From positions 1-47,532 of the IMG/VR virus record IMGVR_UViG_3300020147_000014: a stretch of DNA of 47,532 nt, one strand, 5' to 3'. Below, in pieces: positions 2,125 through 47,532 of the stretch (positions within the stretch are counted from its first letter, which is position 1; every line of letters begins with the position of its first letter). The stretch comes from a virus. The position numbers were made by a program, and so were the translations under genes. The notes under the pieces are model-generated. The model was not told the origin of the DNA. It did no database searches and saw nothing but the letters and a program-made list of their open reading frames with translations.

Positions 2125-3421
2125 TCGTTCCGATTTGGCGTTTTTGAGCCCGAAAGCCATTCAAAAATTCGTCTTTGGGCACGCTACGCCGGCGGAAGGC
2201 GGGCGCATTTCGAGCACGCCGGAGCAAATTCAAGAGGCGATTATCCGCAAATTTGATGGCGGATCGTCCATTTACGGGGCCGTTTCGGACGGCCAGGCGA
2301 TGCGCGTTGCGGCGGTTTGGGCTTGTGTAAGGCTTTTGGCCACCGCCGTAGCCATGTTGCCGCTGTCGCTCTACCGCAAGGACGGCGAAAAGAACGTTCT
2401 TGACACGAAGCATCCCATTTATCGCTTGCTCGCGCTGCGGCCGAACTACTGGCAATCGCCGTTTGAATTTCTGCAAATGGTGGTGACGCATATTCTCATA
2501 AAAGGTAACTTTTACGCGCAAAAAGTTATCTACCGGGGCGAGATCGCTGATCTTGTGCACCTTGATCCGAGTTGCGTGACGCCCGTTCTTAAGGCTGGCG
2601 GGATTGTGTATCGCTATCAGAACGGCGAAGTCGTTCGGGAATTCAAGCAAAGCGATATTCTGCACATCCGCGGCTTGTCAACGGACGGCGTGCGCGGTCT
2701 TTCTGTGCTTGAGCACGCGCGGAACACTGTCGGCGCAGCCGTCGAAATGGAAAAGCACGGCGCCGGCATGATGCAGAACGGTGCGCGCCCGTCCGGCGTG
2801 CTTTATACCGATCTTGAGCTTAGCGACGAAGCTTTCGAGCGCATCCGCAAGGACTTCGAAAAGAATTTCATGGGTTCGGATGCCGCCGGCCGTCCGCTTA
2901 TTCTCGAAACCGGGCTTAAGTGGGCGCAGCTTTCTATGAACGCGGCCGACGCTCAATTTATCGAGCAACGGAAACTGACGCGTTCCGAAATTGCGATGTT
3001 CTTCGGCGTACCGCCCCACATGATTGGCGATATCGAGCGCGGCACGTCTTGGGGCTCTGGTATCGAGCAACAGAATCTCGGATTTCTCGTGCATACGCTC
3101 ATGCCGTATATCGTGAACATTCAGCAAGCGTGTTTGCGCGATTTGATACCTGAAAATGATCGGCCTAACTTCGTTGTCAAATTCGACACTGACCTTTTGA
3201 CGCGCGCCGACTTTATCGCTCGTCAGAATGGTTTGCAGATTCAGAAGCGCAACGGAGTAATTTCGGCAAATGACTGGCGTAAGATCGAAGGCAAAGACCC
3301 AATCGCGGACCCGGAAGCCGACAAATACGCCGTCTCAGGTCCCGGCGCTTCAGGCCCCGCGGGTGCGAGCGGCGAAGAAGCCGAGCCGCAGCCCTCTAGC
3401 CAAGGTTCAGGCCAGCGTTAA
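2114..3421 (+). CDS. Portal protein, HK97 family
   Basis: It forms the dodecameric portal ring at one capsid vertex, through which DNA enters and leaves. The sequence from YGAVSDGQAMRVAAVWACV through LPLSLYRKDG and the later DGVRGLSVLEHAR and FFGVPPHMIGD segments are characteristic of the HK97-type portal family. I place the start at GTG 2114, preceded by GGGG at 2105-2108 and overlapping the terminase stop by 11 bp; a longer upstream frame exists but has an unlikely Arg-rich start. This gives 435 residues, a usual size. The C-terminus is rich in Gly, Ala, Ser and Glu, where the protease frame overlaps it. Confidence 0.92.
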   Translation: MSSSRSDLAFLSPKAIQKFVFGHATPAEGGRISSTPEQIQEAIIRKFDGGSSIYGAVSDGQAMRVAAVWACVRLLATAVAMLPLSLYRKDGEKNVLDTKHPIYRLLALRPNYWQSPFEFLQMVVTHILIKGNFYAQKVIYRGEIADLVHLDPSCVTPVLKAGGIVYRYQNGEVVREFKQSDILHIRGLSTDGVRGLSVLEHARNTVGAAVEMEKHGAGMMQNGARPSGVLYTDLELSDEAFERIRKDFEKNFMGSDAAGRPLILETGLKWAQLSMNAADAQFIEQRKLTRSEIAMFFGVPPHMIGDIERGTSWGSGIEQQNLGFLVHTLMPYIVNIQQACLRDLIPENDRPNFVVKFDTDLLTRADFIARQNGLQIQKRNGVISANDWRKIEGKDPIADPEADKYAVSGPGASGPAGASGEEAEPQPSSQGSGQR

Positions 3422-4196
3422 GGCACTCTCGCGCAAGCCGCTCTTTAACAGCAGTAACGCACGTTTTGACTGCGTGGCGCGCGGCGACGACACGACCGAG
3501 ATCAATATCTATAAGGAGATCGGCGGTTGGTTCGGCGTCAACGCTGAGGAATTTCGCGAAATGTTAGATGGCATTACGTCGTCTAACATCGTAGTCAACA
3601 TTAACTCGCCCGGCGGCGACGTCTTCGACGGCATCGCAATTTACAACGACCTACTTGCGCATAAAGCATACGTTGTGGTACGGGTGACTGGTCTTGCCGC
3701 TAGCGCAGCTTCGATTATCGCACTGGCGGGTGACAGAGTAGAGATTGCTGAGAACGCATTTTTTATGATCCATAACGCGTGGAGTGTTGCCGTTGGCGAC
3801 GCTCGAGTTATGTCCGCAAGGGCTAATTTGCTTAAGAAGATCGACGCCGGTTTGGCGGATACGTATGCGACCCGCACGGGCGGCGACGTTGACGACATCA
3901 AACAGCAAATGGATGACGAGACTTGGTTGACCGCCGCAGAGGCGATCGAACAAGGCTTTGCGGATGCGACTATCGACACCGACGAGAGCGAGGAAGCCGA
4001 CGCTAGAGCGGCTTTCGATCTCTCGCCGTTCAAGAATGTTCCGAAGGCATTGACGCCGCGGCGCATGGCGAAGTCCAAGGCAAAAGAGGAACCGGAAAAG
4101 CTTCCGCTCCCGAAAGAAGCCGAAGACTTTTCGTCGCTCGTGGCAGCCATCAACGATACAAGCCGGAGTTTGGCTGCCCTTATCAGTAACCCTTAG
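3270..4196 (+). CDS. ClpP-like prohead maturation protease
   Basis: A serine protease of the ClpP/S14 fold that processes scaffold or capsid delta domain. Seen: NINSPGGDVFDGIAIYN, the GLAASAAS segment with the nucleophile Ser, FMIHNAWS with the catalytic His, and a downstream MDDETWLTAAEAIEQGFAD segment expected to give the Asp. The fold covers roughly residues 70-240. A basic N-terminal extension of about 55 residues lies in the overlap with the portal gene, and a Lys/Glu/Pro-rich tail follows. ATG 3270 has GGAG about 12 nt upstream; GTG 3363 is the only other good candidate, so the exact N-terminus is uncertain. Confidence 0.88.
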   Translation: MTGVRSKAKTQSRTRKPTNTPSQVPALQAPRVRAAKKPSRSPLAKVQASVKALSRKPLFNSSNARFDCVARGDDTTEINIYKEIGGWFGVNAEEFREMLDGITSSNIVVNINSPGGDVFDGIAIYNDLLAHKAYVVVRVTGLAASAASIIALAGDRVEIAENAFFMIHNAWSVAVGDARVMSARANLLKKIDAGLADTYATRTGGDVDDIKQQMDDETWLTAAEAIEQGFADATIDTDESEEADARAAFDLSPFKNVPKALTPRRMAKSKAKEEPEKLPLPKEAEDFSSLVAAINDTSRSLAALISNP

Positions 4197-4212: not shown

Positions 4213-5547
4213 TTGAATAAATTGATTGTGCCGGTTGCCCCCCGCAACCGCAAACCCCTTCTTGTGCCCGGTCTTACGCGTGGCGTTGCAAATAACGACG
4301 CTACCCCCGTGCCGGGGGAAGTGAAGACCGCGCTCGATAACATGCAGCGCACTTTCCAAGCCTTCAAAGATCAGCACGACAAAGAGCTTGCCGAGCTGAA
4401 GAAAGGCAACCCCGACGTCGTTACGAAAGAGACGACGGATCGCATCAACGCCGAGCTTACGGAGCTTGATAAGCAGCTTCGCGACCTCAATACGCAGATG
4501 CAGGTTGCCGCAGCGCTTCGCGGTGCCGGTCAGCAAGGCGCGACGGCTGAGGAAACCGACTACGCCAATAAGTTTGGCGAGTGGTTCCGCGGCGGCGAGC
4601 GCAGCAACGCCATTGGCGCTGAACTGCACCCCCTGGCCATCAAGGCGGCGATGACCACGCAGAGCAAGCCGGACGGTGGATATCTCGTCCCGACTGCGGT
4701 TGAGACGGCGATTACGCGCGTGCTCGAGCTTCGCTCGGCAATGCGTGGCTTGGCGTCCGTTATGTCGATTGGCACCGACTCCTATACGAAGCTCTACAAC
4801 CTTGGCGGCGCTTCAAGCGGTTGGGTTGGGGAAAAGGAAGCGCGGCCGACGACCTCTGGCGTTCGTCTTTCGGAGCGTGAATTCGACACGCACGAGCTGT
4901 ACGCGATGCCGGCGGCAACGCAGAAGCTTTTGGACGACGCCCGTCTTGATATCGGCGCCTGGCTTGCCAGCGAAGTGAATATTAAGTTCGCAGAAGACGA
5001 AGGCTCGGCTTTCGTCAGCGGCTCCGGCGTAAAGAAGCCGAAGGGCTTTCTTTCGCAGACCAAGATCGCAAACGGGTCTTGGGAGTGGGGCAAGCTCGGC
5101 TTTAAGATTTCTGGCGTCGCGAACGCGTTGACCGACACCAACAATAACGGCGTGGATGCGATGATTGATCTCGTCCACAGCTTGCGTCCGGGCTATCGCA
5201 CGAACGGCAAATTCCTTATGAATGACCTTACGATTTCGGTCATTCGTAAGCTGAAGGACGGCGACGATAACTATCTGTGGCAGCCGTCGATTCAGCTTGG
5301 CGAGCCGTCGCAGCTTCTCGGCTATCCGGTCATTCCTGACGACCACATGCCGGACATCGGCGCAAATACGTTCCCGATCGCATTTGCTGATTGGAAGCGC
5401 GGCTATCTTATCGTTGACCGTATCGGTACCCGCATTTTGCAGGACCCGTACTCGCAGAAGCCTTACGTCCTGTTCTACATGACGAAGCGCGTCGGCGGTG
5501 ACGTTGACGATTACGAAGCTATCAAGCTGCTGAAGATCAGCGCCTAA
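4213..5547 (+). CDS. Major capsid protein, HK97 fold
   Basis: This is the shell protein. Residues about 35-105 are charged and heptad-like (DNMQRTFQAFKDQHDKELAE onward), matching the coiled delta/scaffold domain that the upstream protease removes in HK97-type phages. The following DGGYLVPTAVETAI and SGWVGEKEARP segments, and EGSAFVSGSGVKKPKGFL, are typical of the capsid core. Cleavage just before the mature core, around residue 130, is inferred. The start is TTG 4213, with AGGA at 4201-4204. A strong terminator-like hairpin follows immediately, as often happens after capsid genes. Confidence 0.94.
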   Translation: MNKLIVPVAPRNRKPLLVPGLTRGVANNDATPVPGEVKTALDNMQRTFQAFKDQHDKELAELKKGNPDVVTKETTDRINAELTELDKQLRDLNTQMQVAAALRGAGQQGATAEETDYANKFGEWFRGGERSNAIGAELHPLAIKAAMTTQSKPDGGYLVPTAVETAITRVLELRSAMRGLASVMSIGTDSYTKLYNLGGASSGWVGEKEARPTTSGVRLSEREFDTHELYAMPAATQKLLDDARLDIGAWLASEVNIKFAEDEGSAFVSGSGVKKPKGFLSQTKIANGSWEWGKLGFKISGVANALTDTNNNGVDAMIDLVHSLRPGYRTNGKFLMNDLTISVIRKLKDGDDNYLWQPSIQLGEPSQLLGYPVIPDDHMPDIGANTFPIAFADWKRGYLIVDRIGTRILQDPYSQKPYVLFYMTKRVGGDVDDYEAIKLLKISA

Positions 5548-13712: not shown

Positions 13713-15239
13713 ATGACTTTGGCACGATGGCAGGCGACGATTGTCGATGACGCCGGCAATGTAATTGACCAACCGACGATTACGGTTCGCCGCGATATCC
13801 CCGGCCAGCCATTGGCGCTAATCTACTCCGATCGTGACGGGCTCGTGCCGCTTACAAATCCATTCACGGCAGCGCCCGGCAGCGCTGGCCACGTGTATTT
13901 TCACGCGTCGGGCGGCGCTTATCAGATTACGGCAGAGTCGGCCAGTTTTACCAAGACGCTGCGATACGTCGGCGTTGGTCGCGGTTCTGAAACTGATTTT
14001 TCGGTCTTCACGCCGCGCGGCGCTTGGGAGAATGATATCGGGTATGCCGTAGGCGATTACGTCTCGCACGAAGGCACATCGGGCGTCGAATCGTTCGTGT
14101 CGAAAGTCGATGACAACTTGAACCACGAGCCCGATGCCGACACGCCCGGCGACACCGAATTTTGGATGCATCTTGCAACGCTTACAGTGTCTCAGGCGCA
14201 AGACATCCTAGACGACACGATAGAGGCGAAGAACGCCGCGGAAGCTGCACAAGCTGCTGCCGAAACTGCCGAGACGAACGCAGAGACGGCGGAAACGAAT
14301 GCCGAAGCTGCGGCCGCGCTCGCGATTGCCGCGCAAGGTGCCGCCCAAACAGCAGAGACGAACGCAGAGACGGCGGAAACGAATGCCGAAGCTGCACAAG
14401 CAGCGGCCGAAGCAGCTCGAGACGCCGCGCTGACCGCCGAGACGAATGCAGAGACGGCAGAGACGAACGCGGAAACTGCGCAAGCGGCGGCCGAAGCGGC
14501 ACAAGCTGCGGCTGAAGCCGCGCAAGCCGCCGCAGAGTTTGCCGCCGATAACTTTGACGACAAGTATCTAGGTCCGCACGCGTCGGACCCGACGCTAGAC
14601 AATGACGGCGGGCCTCTTGCGGTTGGAAATCTCTATTGGAACACTAGTAGTAGCGCGTTGAAGGTCTACGACGGTTCGGCGTGGCAGTCGTATAGCGCGG
14701 CGAGCGGCTTGACGGCGCTCGTGGATGATCCGGCGCCGGCGCTCGGTGGCGATCTCAGCTTGAATGGTAACGTCATTACCGGGCTTGAGATTGGCGAAGA
14801 CGTTCAAGCGTACAGCCTGAACCTAGACGCGTGGTCGGCTGAAGATCCGGCCGATTACTCGGATACGGCGGCGATAACGGCGGCTTTGGCTAATCGACTA
14901 CAAACAGACGTGGAGAACCAAGGGCCCATTACTGGCGGCGCAGGTATTACCTCAAAATCTCTTGGCACAATTACTGTGGGGATGACTGTTGTAGTGAACC
15001 CAGCCGCCCGACTCACACAGCACTACACAAACGGTGGCGCGCACACGCTGGACGAAATTGGTGCGGATGGCGTTGCTATTGTCCTGATCACGAATAATGC
15101 CTCGGCCGGCGCGATCTCTCTGACGAATTGGGACCGCACGGATGGCGATCCGTTTACCACGACCAACGGGCACAGGTTCTCGTGCTCAATGGTTCGCTGG
15201 GCGAATTATTCACATCTCAGCGTTACGGCTCTGCAATGA
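13713..15239 (+). CDS. Tail fibre protein with Ala-rich coiled coil
   Basis: A 508-residue trimeric-fibre candidate. The N-terminal domain (MTLARWQATIVDDAGNVIDQ) resembles fibre attachment domains. Residues about 105-150 (RGAWENDIGYAVGDYVSHEG) resemble a carbohydrate-binding CBM5/12 module. Residues about 170-275 are a near-perfect Ala/Glu heptad array of AAQAAAE and AETNAET units, a long coiled coil. The C-terminal part (LYWNTSSSALKVYDGSAWQ, then a beta-rich end) would be the knob. GGAG at 13701-13704 precedes ATG 13713. Confidence 0.85.
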   Translation: MTLARWQATIVDDAGNVIDQPTITVRRDIPGQPLALIYSDRDGLVPLTNPFTAAPGSAGHVYFHASGGAYQITAESASFTKTLRYVGVGRGSETDFSVFTPRGAWENDIGYAVGDYVSHEGTSGVESFVSKVDDNLNHEPDADTPGDTEFWMHLATLTVSQAQDILDDTIEAKNAAEAAQAAAETAETNAETAETNAEAAAALAIAAQGAAQTAETNAETAETNAEAAQAAAEAARDAALTAETNAETAETNAETAQAAAEAAQAAAEAAQAAAEFAADNFDDKYLGPHASDPTLDNDGGPLAVGNLYWNTSSSALKVYDGSAWQSYSAASGLTALVDDPAPALGGDLSLNGNVITGLEIGEDVQAYSLNLDAWSAEDPADYSDTAAITAALANRLQTDVENQGPITGGAGITSKSLGTITVGMTVVVNPAARLTQHYTNGGAHTLDEIGADGVAIVLITNNASAGAISLTNWDRTDGDPFTTTNGHRFSCSMVRWANYSHLSVTALQ

Positions 15240-28316: not shown

Positions 28317-28928
28317 ATGTCAAAGAAATCACCCGTTGGCCCCCGCTTGGTCGGGTATGCGCGCGTTTCAACCGAAGAACAAAATCTGGACATGCAGATT
28401 GCCGCTCTCGTCAATGCCGGCGTGCTCCCCGACAATATCTGGTCGGAACACAAGTCTGCCGTCGCAAAGACCCGGCCGCAGCTCAATAAAGCACTGGCCG
28501 ATGCACGAGACGGCGATACGTTCGTTGTGTGGAAGCTGGACCGGCTCGCTAGAGACATGGCGGACCTGCTTCGGCTGATGAAGCATTTCGAGGACACGGG
28601 CGTCTCGTTCAAAAGCCTCACGGAAGGCATAGATACGGGCACGCCGGTCGGGAAGTTGTTGCTTCACGTCATCGGTGCGCTAGCCCAATTCGAGCGCGAT
28701 CTAATCGTTGAGCGCACGAAGGCCGGCGTTAAGGCGCACCGGGAACGCGGGGGCAAGGTTGGCCAGCCGGCGAAGATCGTAGGCACTAAGCGAACCCGCG
28801 CCGAGCGCATGCTTGAACAGGGGAAGTCGGTAATCCAAGTGGCCGCAGCGATTGGGACCACGCCGACGACGGTATACACTACGTTCGGAATGGACGAGAT
28901 AAACCGCCTTCGGGGAAAGGCCAGATAA
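28317..28928 (+). CDS. Serine recombinase (resolvase/invertase family)
   Basis: A 203-residue small serine recombinase. The catalytic region is VGYARVSTEEQNLDMQIAAL with Ser18; WKLDRLARDMADLLRLM carries the conserved Arg residues and FKSLTEGIDTGTPVGKLLLH is typical. A C-terminal HTH (SVIQVAAAIGTTPTTVYTTF) completes the usual length. Its target is unknown: no obvious invertible fibre segment was found. It could resolve multimers or be a cargo gene. The stop shares TAATG with the next gene. Confidence 0.88.
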   Translation: MSKKSPVGPRLVGYARVSTEEQNLDMQIAALVNAGVLPDNIWSEHKSAVAKTRPQLNKALADARDGDTFVVWKLDRLARDMADLLRLMKHFEDTGVSFKSLTEGIDTGTPVGKLLLHVIGALAQFERDLIVERTKAGVKAHRERGGKVGQPAKIVGTKRTRAERMLEQGKSVIQVAAAIGTTPTTVYTTFGMDEINRLRGKAR

Positions 28929-32014: not shown

Positions 32015-33817
32015 TTAATTCGGGGGTGTGGCGGGCGGCCAGTCTTCGGAGCGGCCGTCTGGCAGGTGCATCACGGCTTTGTCTTTCTTCGACGGCTGCG
32101 CAACGGCAGTGAGCTTCACGGGCTCGAGCGCGCACATGGCTTCGCCCTCGCCGGCGCCAACGCGCACAGTCTTCTTTTCGAACCAACGCGGTTCGGGGCC
32201 GTTTAGCGTGAGGTTCTCTTTCGCGCCGTCGAATCGGACGTAGCGATGCCGGACGTGTTCCGCGATGCCGTAGCGCTCGCCGTCTTTCTGCGACATACCG
32301 AACGCCGTAATCGTGATGCGCGAGGCGTCCTTGATCGCGCTGGCACCACGCACGGCGTTGACGTTGCCGGCGTAGCCGTCGCTCGCGGCCTTGTCCGGCT
32401 TCGACGTGTGGTGGATTGCGAGGCCGGCAGCTTTCGTTTCGGCTACAACGGAAACGAGGATATCCATAACCCTCTGCATTTCCGTGTTGTCGTTTTCATT
32501 GCTCTCATGCACCGAAACGAGCGGATCGAAGCCGGCAACGCCGATGTTATTTGCGAGGATATATTTTACGAGGAACGGCTTTAGCTCGCCTTCGACAATC
32601 TGCGCACGCGCGTTGCCGCGCCGCGCCAGCTTGAACTTATTGCCATGGCCGCTAAACAGATGAATTCGACCTTCGATCGCCGCGAAGTCCACCTTGAAGT
32701 GCTTGCACGCTGCGGCCAGGCGGCGGCGCATTTCGTCTAGTGGGTCTTCGTTGTTGATGATCAGAACATCCGTGCGCTCCACGACGTCAGCCCCGATCAA
32801 GTCACCGCGGCCCGTCGCGATGGCGATAGCGAGTTGTAGGGACCAAGTGCTCTTAGCCGTCGCGCCGGGCGCCGCGAGCACCGTGATATTTTCCCGAATG
32901 GCGATGCCTGGCACGATCCACGCGCGAAGCGGGATAGCGTCAACGCTTTCCGCCGTGTCGTTGTAGCGCCAGACACGCGCGGCGAACGGGTCTTTGATGT
33001 GGTCGGGCAGCTCGATCGGCACGAAGCCGGCGGCGGGATTGTCGCGGCCGATCGCGGCTTGTCGGTGCTCGGCGGCGTTGCGCACTTTGCGCTCGAGATC
33101 GTCGTATTCCCATGGCGGCGCGCAGCGTTCGTTCCAATGCTCAAGCATTAGCTCGAGTGCGGTTTCAGGTGAAACGCCGCGGTCTAGGACGGTGCACGCA
33201 ACCTTATAAGTTGTATTGTCCCCGCCACAGCCTTCGACGGCTTCCGGCGCCGCGCTCTCAAGGTAGCTTCGGGCGCTTGCAATCGCGGCGGGGGTGTCTA
33301 GCTCGCCAACGGCCTTCGGGGCGTCTGCGCTACGCTGGCGGGCGGCGGTAAGGCGTTCTACGAGCCACGCCGGGGCGGGTGCGATCGGCGCGTCATCCTT
33401 GATCGTGTAAAAGCGGTCTTCGAAGATTGAGCCGGGGCCGACGACGTAATTGTGGTGCGCCCGGATATCGATTCCCTTGGCGAGCTTTTCGACGTTACCG
33501 CTCAGCTCGAGGCCCGCCGGCGCCTTGAAATATATGTGCTCGCCGTCGCGGGGTGTCGCGACCGTAAACGTCCGCGGCAGAGTGGCCGCAAAACTCTGTA
33601 AGCTCTCATAGCCGCCCTTATGGGCGTCTACGTCGATAACGATATGCCCGTCTGTAAGGACGCCAATGTTGTAATCGCCGGAATGAATATCGGCTAGGTT
33701 GCAGCTAGCAGACGTCACCCAATCCGTATCAATGAAATGGTTCTTCGTCCCGCGCTTAAGGCGGAACACGCGAAGACCGCGGCGCGCGAGATAGCAGGCG
33801 GATTCAAACGGCGTCAT
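32015..33817 (-). CDS. Bifunctional primase-polymerase/helicase replication protein
   Basis: A 600-residue replication protein. The N-terminal prim-pol domain (FESACYLARRGLRVFRLKRG, HIVIDVDAHKGG with D62 and D64) would make primers. A linker with a PriCT-type helical segment precedes a RecA-like AAA_25/RepA helicase with VLAAPGATAKSTWSLQLAIA as Walker A near 318-326 and IINNEDPLDEM after it; the AIHHTSKP segment is typical. It most likely starts and drives phage DNA replication. It begins inside the stop region of the preceding small gene. Confidence 0.9.
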   Translation of the reverse strand: MTPFESACYLARRGLRVFRLKRGTKNHFIDTDWVTSASCNLADIHSGDYNIGVLTDGHIVIDVDAHKGGYESLQSFAATLPRTFTVATPRDGEHIYFKAPAGLELSGNVEKLAKGIDIRAHHNYVVGPGSIFEDRFYTIKDDAPIAPAPAWLVERLTAARQRSADAPKAVGELDTPAAIASARSYLESAAPEAVEGCGGDNTTYKVACTVLDRGVSPETALELMLEHWNERCAPPWEYDDLERKVRNAAEHRQAAIGRDNPAAGFVPIELPDHIKDPFAARVWRYNDTAESVDAIPLRAWIVPGIAIRENITVLAAPGATAKSTWSLQLAIAIATGRGDLIGADVVERTDVLIINNEDPLDEMRRRLAAACKHFKVDFAAIEGRIHLFSGHGNKFKLARRGNARAQIVEGELKPFLVKYILANNIGVAGFDPLVSVHESNENDNTEMQRVMDILVSVVAETKAAGLAIHHTSKPDKAASDGYAGNVNAVRGASAIKDASRITITAFGMSQKDGERYGIAEHVRHRYVRFDGAKENLTLNGPEPRWFEKKTVRVGAGEGEAMCALEPVKLTAVAQPSKKDKAVMHLPDGRSEDWPPATPPN

Positions 33818-34079
33818 GCGCGCCTCTGAAGTATCTCCGTAGCGCGAGCGTCAACGCGCGCCGCGCCACAGCATCCGAACGCGTGGAGCGCTTCGCGTTG
33901 GTCCGGGACGTGATGCCGAGCACATATGCCTTTGCGCCGACTGCGCTCGTGGAGCGCTTCAGGTCTAAGGCGACCTCTACATTCAAGGCGTGCCCATAGA
34001 TATTTTTGAGGTACTCGATTTCGCAATCCGCCCACGGCTCGCCACTAAACAGGTTGTCGTCGTCCGAAGCTTTCAACAA
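33804..34079 (-). CDS. Small Myb/SANT-like HTH protein
   Basis: A 91-residue protein from TTG 34079, GAGG 7 nt upstream. PWADCEIEYLKNIYGHALNV, then LDLKRSTSAVGAKAYVLGI, follows the W...E...L...R-S-x-x-A-V...K...LG pattern of small Myb/SANT-type DNA-binding proteins in alphaproteobacterial phages. Coupled to the primase by a 14-bp overlap; may help at the origin (inference). Confidence 0.6.
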   Translation of the reverse strand: MLKASDDDNLFSGEPWADCEIEYLKNIYGHALNVEVALDLKRSTSAVGAKAYVLGITSRTNAKRSTRSDAVARRALTLALRRYFRGAHDAV

Positions 34080-44546: not shown

Positions 44547-44733
44547 ACGACGCTACCAGACGTTTGAATCGCAGTGAAGTTGTAACATCGGTTGCCCGAC
44601 AGGCAACGGCTGTAGCGTCACTAAAGCGCCACACTCCACAGAATGTAGGCTGCTGAACGGAACAAATTTGAACGGCTATGCGTTTGCGCGGGCCTAGAAA
44701 TTTAGCGGTGCGCTTGATCAGTTGTCGGACGGG

Positions 44734-45343: not shown

Positions 45344-45379
45344 TTGTCCTAGTCGTTGAATGAGCGTATAAAATATGCG
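45344..45379 (+). promoter_or_regulatory. Rightward promoter with operator over the -10
   Basis: TTGTCC (45344-45349), 17-bp spacer, TATAAA (45367-45372). The -10 lies inside CGTATA-AAA-TATGCG (45365-45379). The gene starts at 45404 with AGGAGG at 45391-45396. This is the clearest case of the operator occluding a promoter. Confidence 0.75.
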
Positions 45380-45403
45380 CACACAGCATTAGGAGGATTT
45401 TGC

Positions 45404-45862
45404 GTGTCTACGCCGGGTATCGGTCACAATTCGGGTTGCGCCGAAATTGTAAATGAAACTGAAGTCGCGAACCTGCTTCGCGTGGCTAAGGCCGAGTACA
45501 ACAGTGCGGCGGCCGACAAGCGCGAAGCTACGGGCGTTATGCGCGACGAGAAGCGCGCCTTTCAGAAGGCGAACGCTGCCGAATACGAAGCAATCACGGC
45601 CATCATGGAAGCCGCCCGCGAGCGAATGAAAGGCAAGCTCCGGACCCTGCCGACCTACAGCGACGCTGAGGAACAGAAGCGTGACGCGTCGATACGTATG
45701 AAAGCCGTCGTCAAGAAACTCAAGGACGCCGGCGTTGACGTCGCTGCTTTCAAGCAGGCGCTTCGCATGGGTGACATGGATATCTACGAGCGGCAGGAAT
45801 ATTTCGACGCGATCGATATCTATTGCAAGGCGCTGAAGCTTTGGAATGGCGCGGACATTTAG
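45404..45862 (+). CDS. IGHNSG-motif early protein
   Basis: A 152-residue protein from GTG 45404, with a perfect AGGAGG 7 nt upstream. MSTPGIGHNSG is an N-terminal signature found in many alphaproteobacterial phage and GapR-like proteins. The rest is helical (REATGVMRDEKRAFQKANAA) with a C-terminal segment GVDVAAFKQALRMGDMDIYE. The earlier in-frame codons lie in the operator and are not translated. Strong RBS and promoter suggest high expression when derepressed. Possibly DNA binding. Confidence 0.7.
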   Translation: MSTPGIGHNSGCAEIVNETEVANLLRVAKAEYNSAAADKREATGVMRDEKRAFQKANAAEYEAITAIMEAARERMKGKLRTLPTYSDAEEQKRDASIRMKAVVKKLKDAGVDVAAFKQALRMGDMDIYERQEYFDAIDIYCKALKLWNGADI

Positions 45863-45931
45863 TCCGATATTTTGCGCGACAATCTGTGCGTGATAATACC
45901 TCTGCACTTTTGAAGTGTGGAGCTATTACAC

Positions 45932-46132
45932 GTGGCTAAGTCCAAAAAGAAGGTGCCGGAGATTCTTGTTTGCGAGCGCTCCGGCCGCGAATTCCCTTAC
46001 CGCGGCCACGGCCGCCCGCCGAAGTACCATCCCGACGTCAAGAAGGAAATGGACCGGGAGCGCCGGGCCGCCGCCTATGCCGCTAAGCAGGCTGCGAAGG
46101 GCAAGACCGTTAAGAGCCGCCTCGCGGCTTAG
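45932..46132 (+). CDS. Small basic protein
   Basis: A 66-residue, Lys/Arg-rich protein; GTG 45932 has GGAG about 11 nt upstream (GTG 45917 is an alternative). Contains ILVCERSGREFPYRGHGRPP, resembling an AT-hook/HTH-type RGHGRPPKY patch, and a charged helical end. It is directly upstream of the HNH gene at the packaging end, so it may be a DNA-binding partner. Confidence 0.55.
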   Translation: MAKSKKKVPEILVCERSGREFPYRGHGRPPKYHPDVKKEMDRERRAAAYAAKQAAKGKTVKSRLAA

Positions 46133-46134
46133 TC

Positions 46135-46434
46135 GTGCCAGGCTACGACGCTAACCGGCCGTGGCGGCATCTGTACGGCCGGCGCTGGGATAAGGCCCGA
46201 CTGAAGCATCTGGACAAGCACCCGCTATGCGTTCGCTGCCAGGCTCAAGGGCGCATTGAGCCCGCTACAGTCGTTGACCACAAGACGCCGCATAAGGGCT
46301 GCTTAAAGCTGTTTTGGGATCGCCTCAACTGGCAGAGCCTATGCAAGTCATGCCACGACGGATGGAAACAGCGCCTTGAGAACGCCCCGCCGTCGTGCGG
46401 AGCTGACGGCTATCCTATCGATAGTAGTTGGTAG
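46135..46434 (+). CDS. HNH endonuclease next to the terminase end
   Basis: A 99-residue HNH nuclease from GTG 46135. The domain is PLCVRCQAQGRIEPATVVDH, then KTPHKG and WQSLCKSCHDGWKQ, with two Cys pairs for structural zinc and the D-H catalytic pair. HNH genes beside terminase genes are required for cos cleavage in HK97-type phages, and this one lies about 1 kb before the small terminase if the genome is joined end to end. Confidence 0.88.
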   Translation: MPGYDANRPWRHLYGRRWDKARLKHLDKHPLCVRCQAQGRIEPATVVDHKTPHKGCLKLFWDRLNWQSLCKSCHDGWKQRLENAPPSCGADGYPIDSSW

Positions 46435-46615
46435 CGAACGATACGGTTCGGGCTCGCACCATAGTTTTTGCTCGCCAACGATACGGTGCGGCGCCTCACC
46501 ATATTTTTAGTCGCTCAACGATACGGAGTCGGTGCGCACCATATTTTTGTGCGGGCAACGATACGAGGTGGTGCCGAACGATACGGTGCGCCGGCCCACG
46601 AAACGAGTTAGGGGG

Positions 46616-46649
46616 CTCAGAAAAGCCCGTATTTATTGGGTTTTTTGAG
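46616..46649. other. Hairpin spacer 1 of the repeat array
   Basis: CTCAGAAAAGCCC and GGGTTTTTTGAG pair around GTATTTATT. The stretch CCCGTATTTATTGGGTTTTT is identical in spacer 3. Looks like an intrinsic terminator read rightward. Confidence 0.6.
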
Positions 46650-46860
46650 GGCCATTTTCAACGATACGAGGCGGTGCCGAACGATACGGTGCGCCAGCTC
46701 ACCATAGTTTTGTCCGGCCAACGATACGGATGTGGTCCGCACCATAGTTTTCGCTCGCCAACGATATGGTGTGCCGATCAACGATATTTTTGTCTGGCGA
46801 ACCATACGAGTCGGGCTTGAACGATACGAGCGGCAGGCCGTTGAAACGGTCGAAAAGGGG

Positions 46861-46890
46861 CTAAAAATGACGGTTTTCGGGTCATTTTAG
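46861..46890. other. Hairpin spacer 2 of the repeat array
   Basis: CTAAAAATGAC pairs with GTCATTTTAG (one bulged A). The bases differ from the other two spacers but the position between blocks and the trailing GGGGGTATTTTTGA are kept, so structure rather than sequence seems conserved. Confidence 0.55.
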
Positions 46891-47081
46891 GGGGTATTTT
46901 TGATCGAAACGCGCTCGGTTTGAACGATACAAAGGGCGGCCCGATGATACGGATGCGCCTCGCACCATAGTTTTGCCCGGCGAACGATACGGTGCCCCGG
47001 CCAACGATATTTTTGCTCGGTCAACGATACGGATGCGCCTCGCACCATAGTTTTATCCGGTCAACGATGGACCCAGGCACT

Positions 47082-47111
47082 CTAAAACCCCCGTATTTAT
47101 TGGGTTTTTAG
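47082..47111. other. Hairpin spacer 3 of the repeat array
   Basis: CTAAAACCC pairs with GGGTTTTTAG around CCGTATTTATT, followed by GGGGTGTTTTTGA as after spacer 2. Same loop as spacer 1. Confidence 0.6.
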
Positions 47112-47290
47112 GGGGTGTTTTTGAACGATAATTTGGCTTGGCGAACGATACGGTACTGAATGCCACGATAATTATAGGGGGCCAACGATACGGTGTGCCT
47201 TCTCACCATAGTTTGTGCTGACCAACGATACGGATAGCGAGTGAACGATATGGATGTGGGCCCCACGGTACGGATGCCAGGTGCACCGCA

Positions 47291-47532
47291 TGAATGGGCG
47301 CTGTTGGTGGGGTGTGGTGCAGCTCGAGGCTAGGTTAGTAGGTGCTGAGTACGGGCAGCACGCTTAGGCTGTAGGTATATTCAATACGAATCAGTTAGTT
47401 GAGGGCTCAACTAAACATGATATATTAGCAACATATACGAATAAAATACACAGTGGTATAAATATGACATGTGGCTAGAATATCACGTGACATAAAAGCA
47501 ACAAAATCTTTTTTGGGTTTTCGCCCGGGGAC
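47291..47532. other. Non-coding right end, cos-proximal region
   Basis: No gene is seen from the end of the repeat array to the window end. The stretch turns AT-rich after 47370, then ends in a T-run and the GC-rich CGCCCGGGGAC. If the window ends are true virion ends, this terminal GC-rich block is a candidate 3' cohesive end. Positions 1-64 would continue it as the leader of the small terminase gene. Confidence 0.35.
47395..47426 (+). promoter_or_regulatory. Candidate late promoter with palindromic operator
   Basis: TTGAGG (47399-47404), 16-bp spacer, TATATT (47421-47426), reading toward the terminase genes if the ends are joined. The -35 is inside a palindrome with 9-bp arms TTAGTTGAG/CTCAACTAA (47395-47414), different from the dispersed operator. 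The following AT-rich 100 bp contain a degenerate operator-like CGAATAAAATACACA at 47438. Confidence 0.5.

Follow-up and report, generated by a model that had tools for sequence, protein, structure and literature searches.

A four-block array of 37 repeats at a 20-bp pitch near the right cohesive end of an uncultivated phage genome

The uncultivated phage record IMGVR_UViG_3300020147_000014, the whole of which (47,532 nt) is the window analysed here, carries near one chromosome end an array of 37 units of 20 bp (46437-47303). The units form four blocks of 9, 10, 9 and 9, which start at 46437, 46660, 46903 and 47124 and are separated by hairpin-forming linkers of 43, 43 and 41 bp. The array is a lineage-specific addition and not a conserved element of the phage group. 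We give about even odds (probability roughly 0.5) to the reading, drawn from sequence features, that it is an iteron- or centromere-like nucleoprotein platform of this lineage, which would act in cis and carry many copies of one dimeric protein. If its sites are bound, the array would be a nucleoprotein platform of unusual size and regularity at a phage cohesive end, and a test bed both for how phages gain cis elements beside cos and for whether replication start and packaging start are coupled at a chromosome end.

Block 1 (46437-46616; all blocks and linkers are given on the + strand) holds nine units in the order A B A B A B A A C and is called by TRF at a period of 40. Linker 1 (46617-46659, 43 bp) is a hairpin with an A-tract/CCC stem and the loop GTATTTATT, followed by a T-run, and its + strand folding energy is -19.9 kcal/mol (z = -3.5). 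Block 2 (46660-46859) has ten units and is followed by linker 2 (46860-46902, 43 bp), a hairpin of CTAAAAATGAC and GTCATTTTAG (z = -2.4, + strand). Block 3 (46903-47082) has nine units, the final one truncated (AACGATGG), and linker 3 (47083-47123, 41 bp) contains an inverted repeat and shares the loop GTATTTATT with linker 1, at a folding energy that is not significant (z = -0.4). Block 4 (47124-47303) has nine units, the final two degenerate. Self-identity of the array is 0.437, 0.468 and 0.399 at lags of 20, 40 and 60 bp, set against a lag-20 mean of 0.253 (sd 0.015) in 1000 first-order Markov simulations of the array sequence, in which identity reached at most 0.310 at these three lags. 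An earlier note on this DNA had described about 37 repeats at a 20-bp period in four blocks, with two alternating flavours and a third at block edges, and this description is borne out (z = 12.2 at lag 20). Self-identity is strongest at lag 40, and the period is better described as 40 bp, composed of two alternating 20-bp slots, of which slot A begins AACGATACGG and slot B begins CACCATAGTTTT. At block edges the B slots are filled by A-like repeats, and the third flavour, a GAAACG variant, occurs there as well. The pitch is exact within each block, and spacer pairs recur between blocks, which points to segmental duplication in the history of the array.

Conservation within the units is sharply focused. 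Columns 2, 3, 5 and 7 of the 37-unit alignment read A in 35, C in 35, A in 35 and A in 36 units (95-97%), and columns 13 and 16 are close to random. Constrained cores next to drifting spacers argue for selection on putative binding sites, with the constraint read from the units of a single array in one genome, where duplication explains part of the unit similarity. A neutral or selfish satellite, in which a functionless 40-bp unit was amplified through unequal recombination, would account for the clear segmental duplications, the degenerate units at the end of block 4 and the array-free relatives described below. Without selection, however, decay should be uniform, whereas the pitch is exact within blocks and the four core columns stand out against near-random adjacent spacer columns, and we hold a satellite to be rather unlikely.

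The 867-bp array contains the half-site (A/C)AC(G/C)ATA 30 times on its + strand and once on its - strand; the other 46 kb contain it 17 times (8 +, 9 -). The claim that all copies point the same way thus holds for the strong half-site but not for the units as wholes, which are pseudo-palindromic, B resembling the reverse complement of A. Slot A and reverse-complemented slot B agree at 14 of 18 positions (GGCCAACGATACGGTGCG vs GGCCAAAACTATGGTGCG, p = 0.0002); direct A-B similarity is weaker (p = 0.011), and slot A is weakly palindromic in itself (p = 0.009). These p-values, from 22-column profiles and 5000 column shuffles, use the better-preserved units only (12 A, 9 B) and are indicative. Our reading is that each unit is probably a pseudo-palindromic site in which one half stays constant.

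In the proposed platform, 37 putative pseudo-palindromic sites of about 12-18 bp, built on the core AACGATACGGTG or on CACCATAGTTTT, nearly its reverse complement, would each present one nearly invariant half-site, 20 bp from the next, to a dimeric DNA-binding protein, many copies of which may bind cooperatively. It had been proposed that the cores fall nearly on one DNA face; since 20 bp is 1.9 turns, simple arithmetic gives a drift of about 34 degrees per site in place of a constant face. Such a pitch could give the protein-DNA fibre a slow superhelical twist, roughly one turn for each block, the hairpin linkers serving as block separators. The array may have arisen within this lineage, in the variable HNH-cosN gap, and grown through segmental duplication.

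In the rest of the phage record no site exceeds the shuffled maxima, and the array is therefore a dedicated locus. The idea of a nucleoprotein array, already put forward in the earlier note, fits the pseudo-palindromic cores, the free spacers and the single dedicated locus; the specific roles proposed with it are not established. Isolated sites near a repressor-like gene do not rise above chance, and operators of an immunity repressor were rejected. Numerous operator-like pseudo-palindromes would suit a decoy or regulatory function, the array titrating a transcription factor of the host or the phage, but the phage has no isolated above-chance site elsewhere, and we find this improbable; a role of the platform as host-factor decoy or regulator is given the same low weight.

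The array is likely non-coding, as had been claimed. All reading frames over 46437-47532 are interrupted, with 9-17 stops per frame, and neither a 20-bp nor a 40-bp pitch preserves a reading frame; a translated region was rejected. A structured RNA was rejected too, because an Rfam search of the array gave no match and folding of the whole array on the + strand shows no excess (z = -0.2; z = -1.8 on the - strand). Neighbouring slots do not maintain RNA pairing with each other: at 46760/46780 the A unit retains GGTG and its partner starts AACG.

One look-alike is the TIGR guide-RNA array, characterised by alternating 8-12-nt repeats, independent spacers of 9 (up to 12) nt, an adjacent Nop-domain Tas protein, box D/box C repeat ends and 36-nt RNAs. 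As a TIGR-type array, the phage locus would yield a + strand precursor with terminator-like hairpins ending its blocks, and its two alternating repeats with 8-10-nt spacers would give dual-spacer guides for a Nop-domain protein. The phage array does have two distinct alternating repeats of 10-12 nt at a 40-bp period (its block-edge B slots being A-like), a fixed pitch, blocks of about five 40-nt units, spacers some 8-10 nt long and, in block 3, a truncated final repeat followed by a hairpin, all like the published description (PMC12045711). It differs in three respects. The record, which appears full length, encodes no Tas, IS110-C-terminal or Nop protein: PF02371 and PF01798 gave no match, and the best E value was 0.9 for a Tas HMM built from 19 Tas-like proteins beside TIGR arrays, with which left-out members score E <= 1e-35. 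The spacers, although of fitting length, are not independent, since B-slot spacers have GG(C/T)C in common at columns 17-20 and a mean identity of 0.48 vs 0.36 expected, in contrast to 0.25-0.34 vs 0.25-0.27 in TIGR controls. Finally, the A and B repeats have (A/C)AC(G/C)ATA in common but differ in their 3' parts, so they lack a common box D start and box C end and are related by inversion. Such an array is thus quite improbable here, and so, a shade more, is an orphan or divergent RNA-guide array related to dual-repeat TIGR that would depend on a host-borne or unrecognised effector. Phage arrays of the present kind and TIGR guide arrays are easily confused, and the comparison indicates which features separate them.

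A periodicity scan of related loci supplied an instance of the latter. Contig L013 contains arrays at 1812-2143 and 2997-3391 with repeats TGAAACCCA/TGCGAGCCA at an 18-bp pitch and random 9-nt spacers, and the same pattern occurs in 55 IMG/VR stretches, mostly alternating at 18 bp and occupying the gaps beside genes of about 245-350 residues. With TG at the start and CCA at the end, the repeats agree with the published TIGR description (PMC12045711), and we take these to be TIGR-Tas loci, their proteins being judged Tas-like from sequence and context. TIGR-type arrays with Tas-like proteins were seen in about 45 IMG/VR contigs (stretches L258-L312), often with several arrays per contig, which fill intergenic gaps and lie mostly in gene orientation. 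In L013 a 60-aa ribbon-helix-helix-like protein (3401-3583) begins about 10-30 nt after one of these arrays. That gene had suggested a ribbon-helix-helix binder for the phage array, a candidate that was dropped, as the L013 array is of TIGR type and stands beside a Tas-like gene.

Between the HNH gene and cos, the phage array reaches to within about 230 bp of the right cohesive end. The right end AAAATCTTTTTTGGGTTTTCGCCCGGGGAC (47503-47532, + strand) agrees with the sequence left of cosN in the related contig L167, where it corresponds to the stretch immediately before CGCCGCCGGGGGTCAC; contig L164 begins at GGGGAC there. The phage record begins at the GTACAATTTC box, next after GGGGAC, and its left end (1-29, + strand) holds a cos-proximal box, GTACAATTTCGATTTGCGAAAGTTTTAGG, that alignment suggests is the equivalent of the HK97 TerS site (+15 to +29). 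The HK97 chromosome ends with GACCGCCGCCAAA and starts with GTTTGAATTT. Because both ends fit cos, we take the record to be the mature chromosome minus about 10-12 cohesive-end bases. The array was said to lie between an HNH nuclease and the small terminase. The HNH gene (46135-46434, +), a packaging-type, HK97 gp74-like endonuclease (PHROG 2323, E 1e-33; PF01844) that matches HNH genes of HK97-group phages, does adjoin it; the small terminase (P27/Terminase_4; 65-568, +; PHROG 83, PF05119) is at the opposite end of the linear record, as is an HK97-type large terminase (427-2124, +; PHROG 9, E 2e-122). The operon that precedes HNH encodes a protein with a GapR-like DNA-binding domain (45356-45862, +), a weak match below cut-off (PF10073, E 0.0025), whose gene is also kept in relatives without the array. 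HNH is preceded, in relatives too, by a 71-aa basic protein (45917-46132) with a GRPPKYHP motif and no known family.

The earlier note had named absence from the same locus in close relatives as an argument against a conserved cis element. The array is missing from the HNH-cos gap in four relatives that share the HNH-cos-TerS order (L002, L003, L166 and L167), and it is therefore not conserved in the group, in which the nearest TerL matches found are 61-65% identical and closer kin could exist. In these relatives TerS is 53-60% and HNH 62-71% identical. The array-free gap measures about 144 bp in L002, 359 bp in L003 and 123 bp in L166, and the gap of about 386 bp in L167 holds a different, AT-rich 52-bp tandem repeat (about 2.6-3 copies, 4826-4960) directly left of cosN. 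The array thus occupies a gap where relatives have nothing or unrelated repeats. Scans of the entire L002 (44.3 kb) and L166 (41.8 kb) contigs revealed no comparable array. Wider searches were equally negative: the exact A-B pattern had no match in viral and genome contigs, a four-unit ACSATA pattern had eight matches that are all unrelated simple repeats, and a relaxed pattern had 38 matches in viral contigs, none periodic, with one isolated match in 385 genomes of a class sample and none in 398 of an order sample, about chance level. A plasmid search for the array gave no match. Elsewhere in the set, L006 carries, about 2 kb upstream of a terminase gene, a 23-bp tandem repeat (2800-2925) whose core, TTGTCCCTAGGGACAA, is palindromic.

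These comparisons bear on a role in packaging, in which the small terminase, HNH or a partner protein would bind the array and terminase would collect at the chromosome end, as at an enlarged cosB/cosQ. Its place between HNH and cosN, its neighbourhood of packaging proteins (HNH, TerS, TerL) and the tandem repeat of about three 52-bp copies just before cosN in L167 are all consistent with this. The phage shares with HK97-type cos regions the HNH-cosN-TerS order, a related end sequence (GACCGCCGCC in HK97 and L167) and the TerS-site box, which is common to the record and its relatives; it differs in that the HNH-cos gap is array-free in HK97 and the relatives examined. A cosB or TerS site should be conserved along with TerS in related phages, and this array is not, despite the similar TerS and HNH proteins. 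Moreover, the site recognised by HK97 TerS (+15 to +29; PMC11331095) is separated from the array location by cosN, and the equivalent box is kept at 1-29. Since the relatives lack the array and the HK97 TerS site lies across cosN, an essential packaging signal is disfavoured. We consider an enlarged cosB/cosQ unlikely, and would allow slightly more for an aid to packaging or end handling.

Partition was another role suggested. The array would then be a sopC- or parC-like centromere for an extrachromosomal prophage. The architecture does recall the F plasmid sopC, bound by ParB/SopB and made of twelve 43-bp repeats with a 16-bp inverted repeat in each (PMC9178275), and the pSK41 type II parC, in which ParR binds 20-bp repeats (PMC9426499). 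Like sopC, the array consists of tandem units of about 40 bp with an inverted repeat at one dedicated locus, and like parC it sets many, here putative, binding sites in a row at a 20-bp pitch. It departs from sopC in its alternating sites 20 bp apart, four blocks and hairpin linkers, and from parC in its pseudo-palindromic, far more numerous sites and variable spacers. The linked ParB- or ParR-type and motor genes of such a centromere were not found: a search of the record with PF02195 (ParB) gave nothing at E <= 10, and no ParA/ParM/ParR-type match came up when most of the larger proteins were scanned against Pfam/PHROG. The phage also encodes a tyrosine integrase, and a partition centromere is accordingly very improbable. 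Another recombinase gene, of the serine resolvase/invertase family (28317-28925), lies beside a GIY-YIG-like gene at 28928 and is missing from the relatives compared.

For the nucleoprotein platform itself, a replication-associated iteron role beside the AT-rich pre-cos stretch is the role we put first, tentatively and at well below even odds; the probability left after this, packaging and decoy falls to other roles. Some 70 bp separate the end of the array from the genome's most GC-poor 150 bp (31%; 47372-47521), which lie between the array and the cos end. Repeated sites about two helical turns apart with an adjoining AT-rich stretch are also the mark of plasmid iterons. Plasmid iterons typically number a handful, however, against 37 sites here, and there is neither an adjoining initiator gene nor a DnaA box in the array/cos region. 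The prim-pol gene (32015-33817) is a candidate initiator that might bind the putative iterons. A replication start gains weakly from the AT-rich neighbour and from a detrended GC-skew minimum at 44,640, 1.8 kb from the array, but the skew also follows gene direction, and array-free relatives likewise have an AT-rich gap with a skew minimum close by; in G005 and L167, too, the lowest GC falls in the HNH-cos gap. The number of sites, above ordinary iteron counts, also tells against the platform, and a cognate protein was not identified.

Two further features of the record were noted. A 91-aa protein at 33804-34079 is weakly GcrA-like, a hint of an alphaproteobacterial host. In-frame 21/42-bp repeats occupy 14207-14542 within a 508-aa open reading frame (13713-15239).
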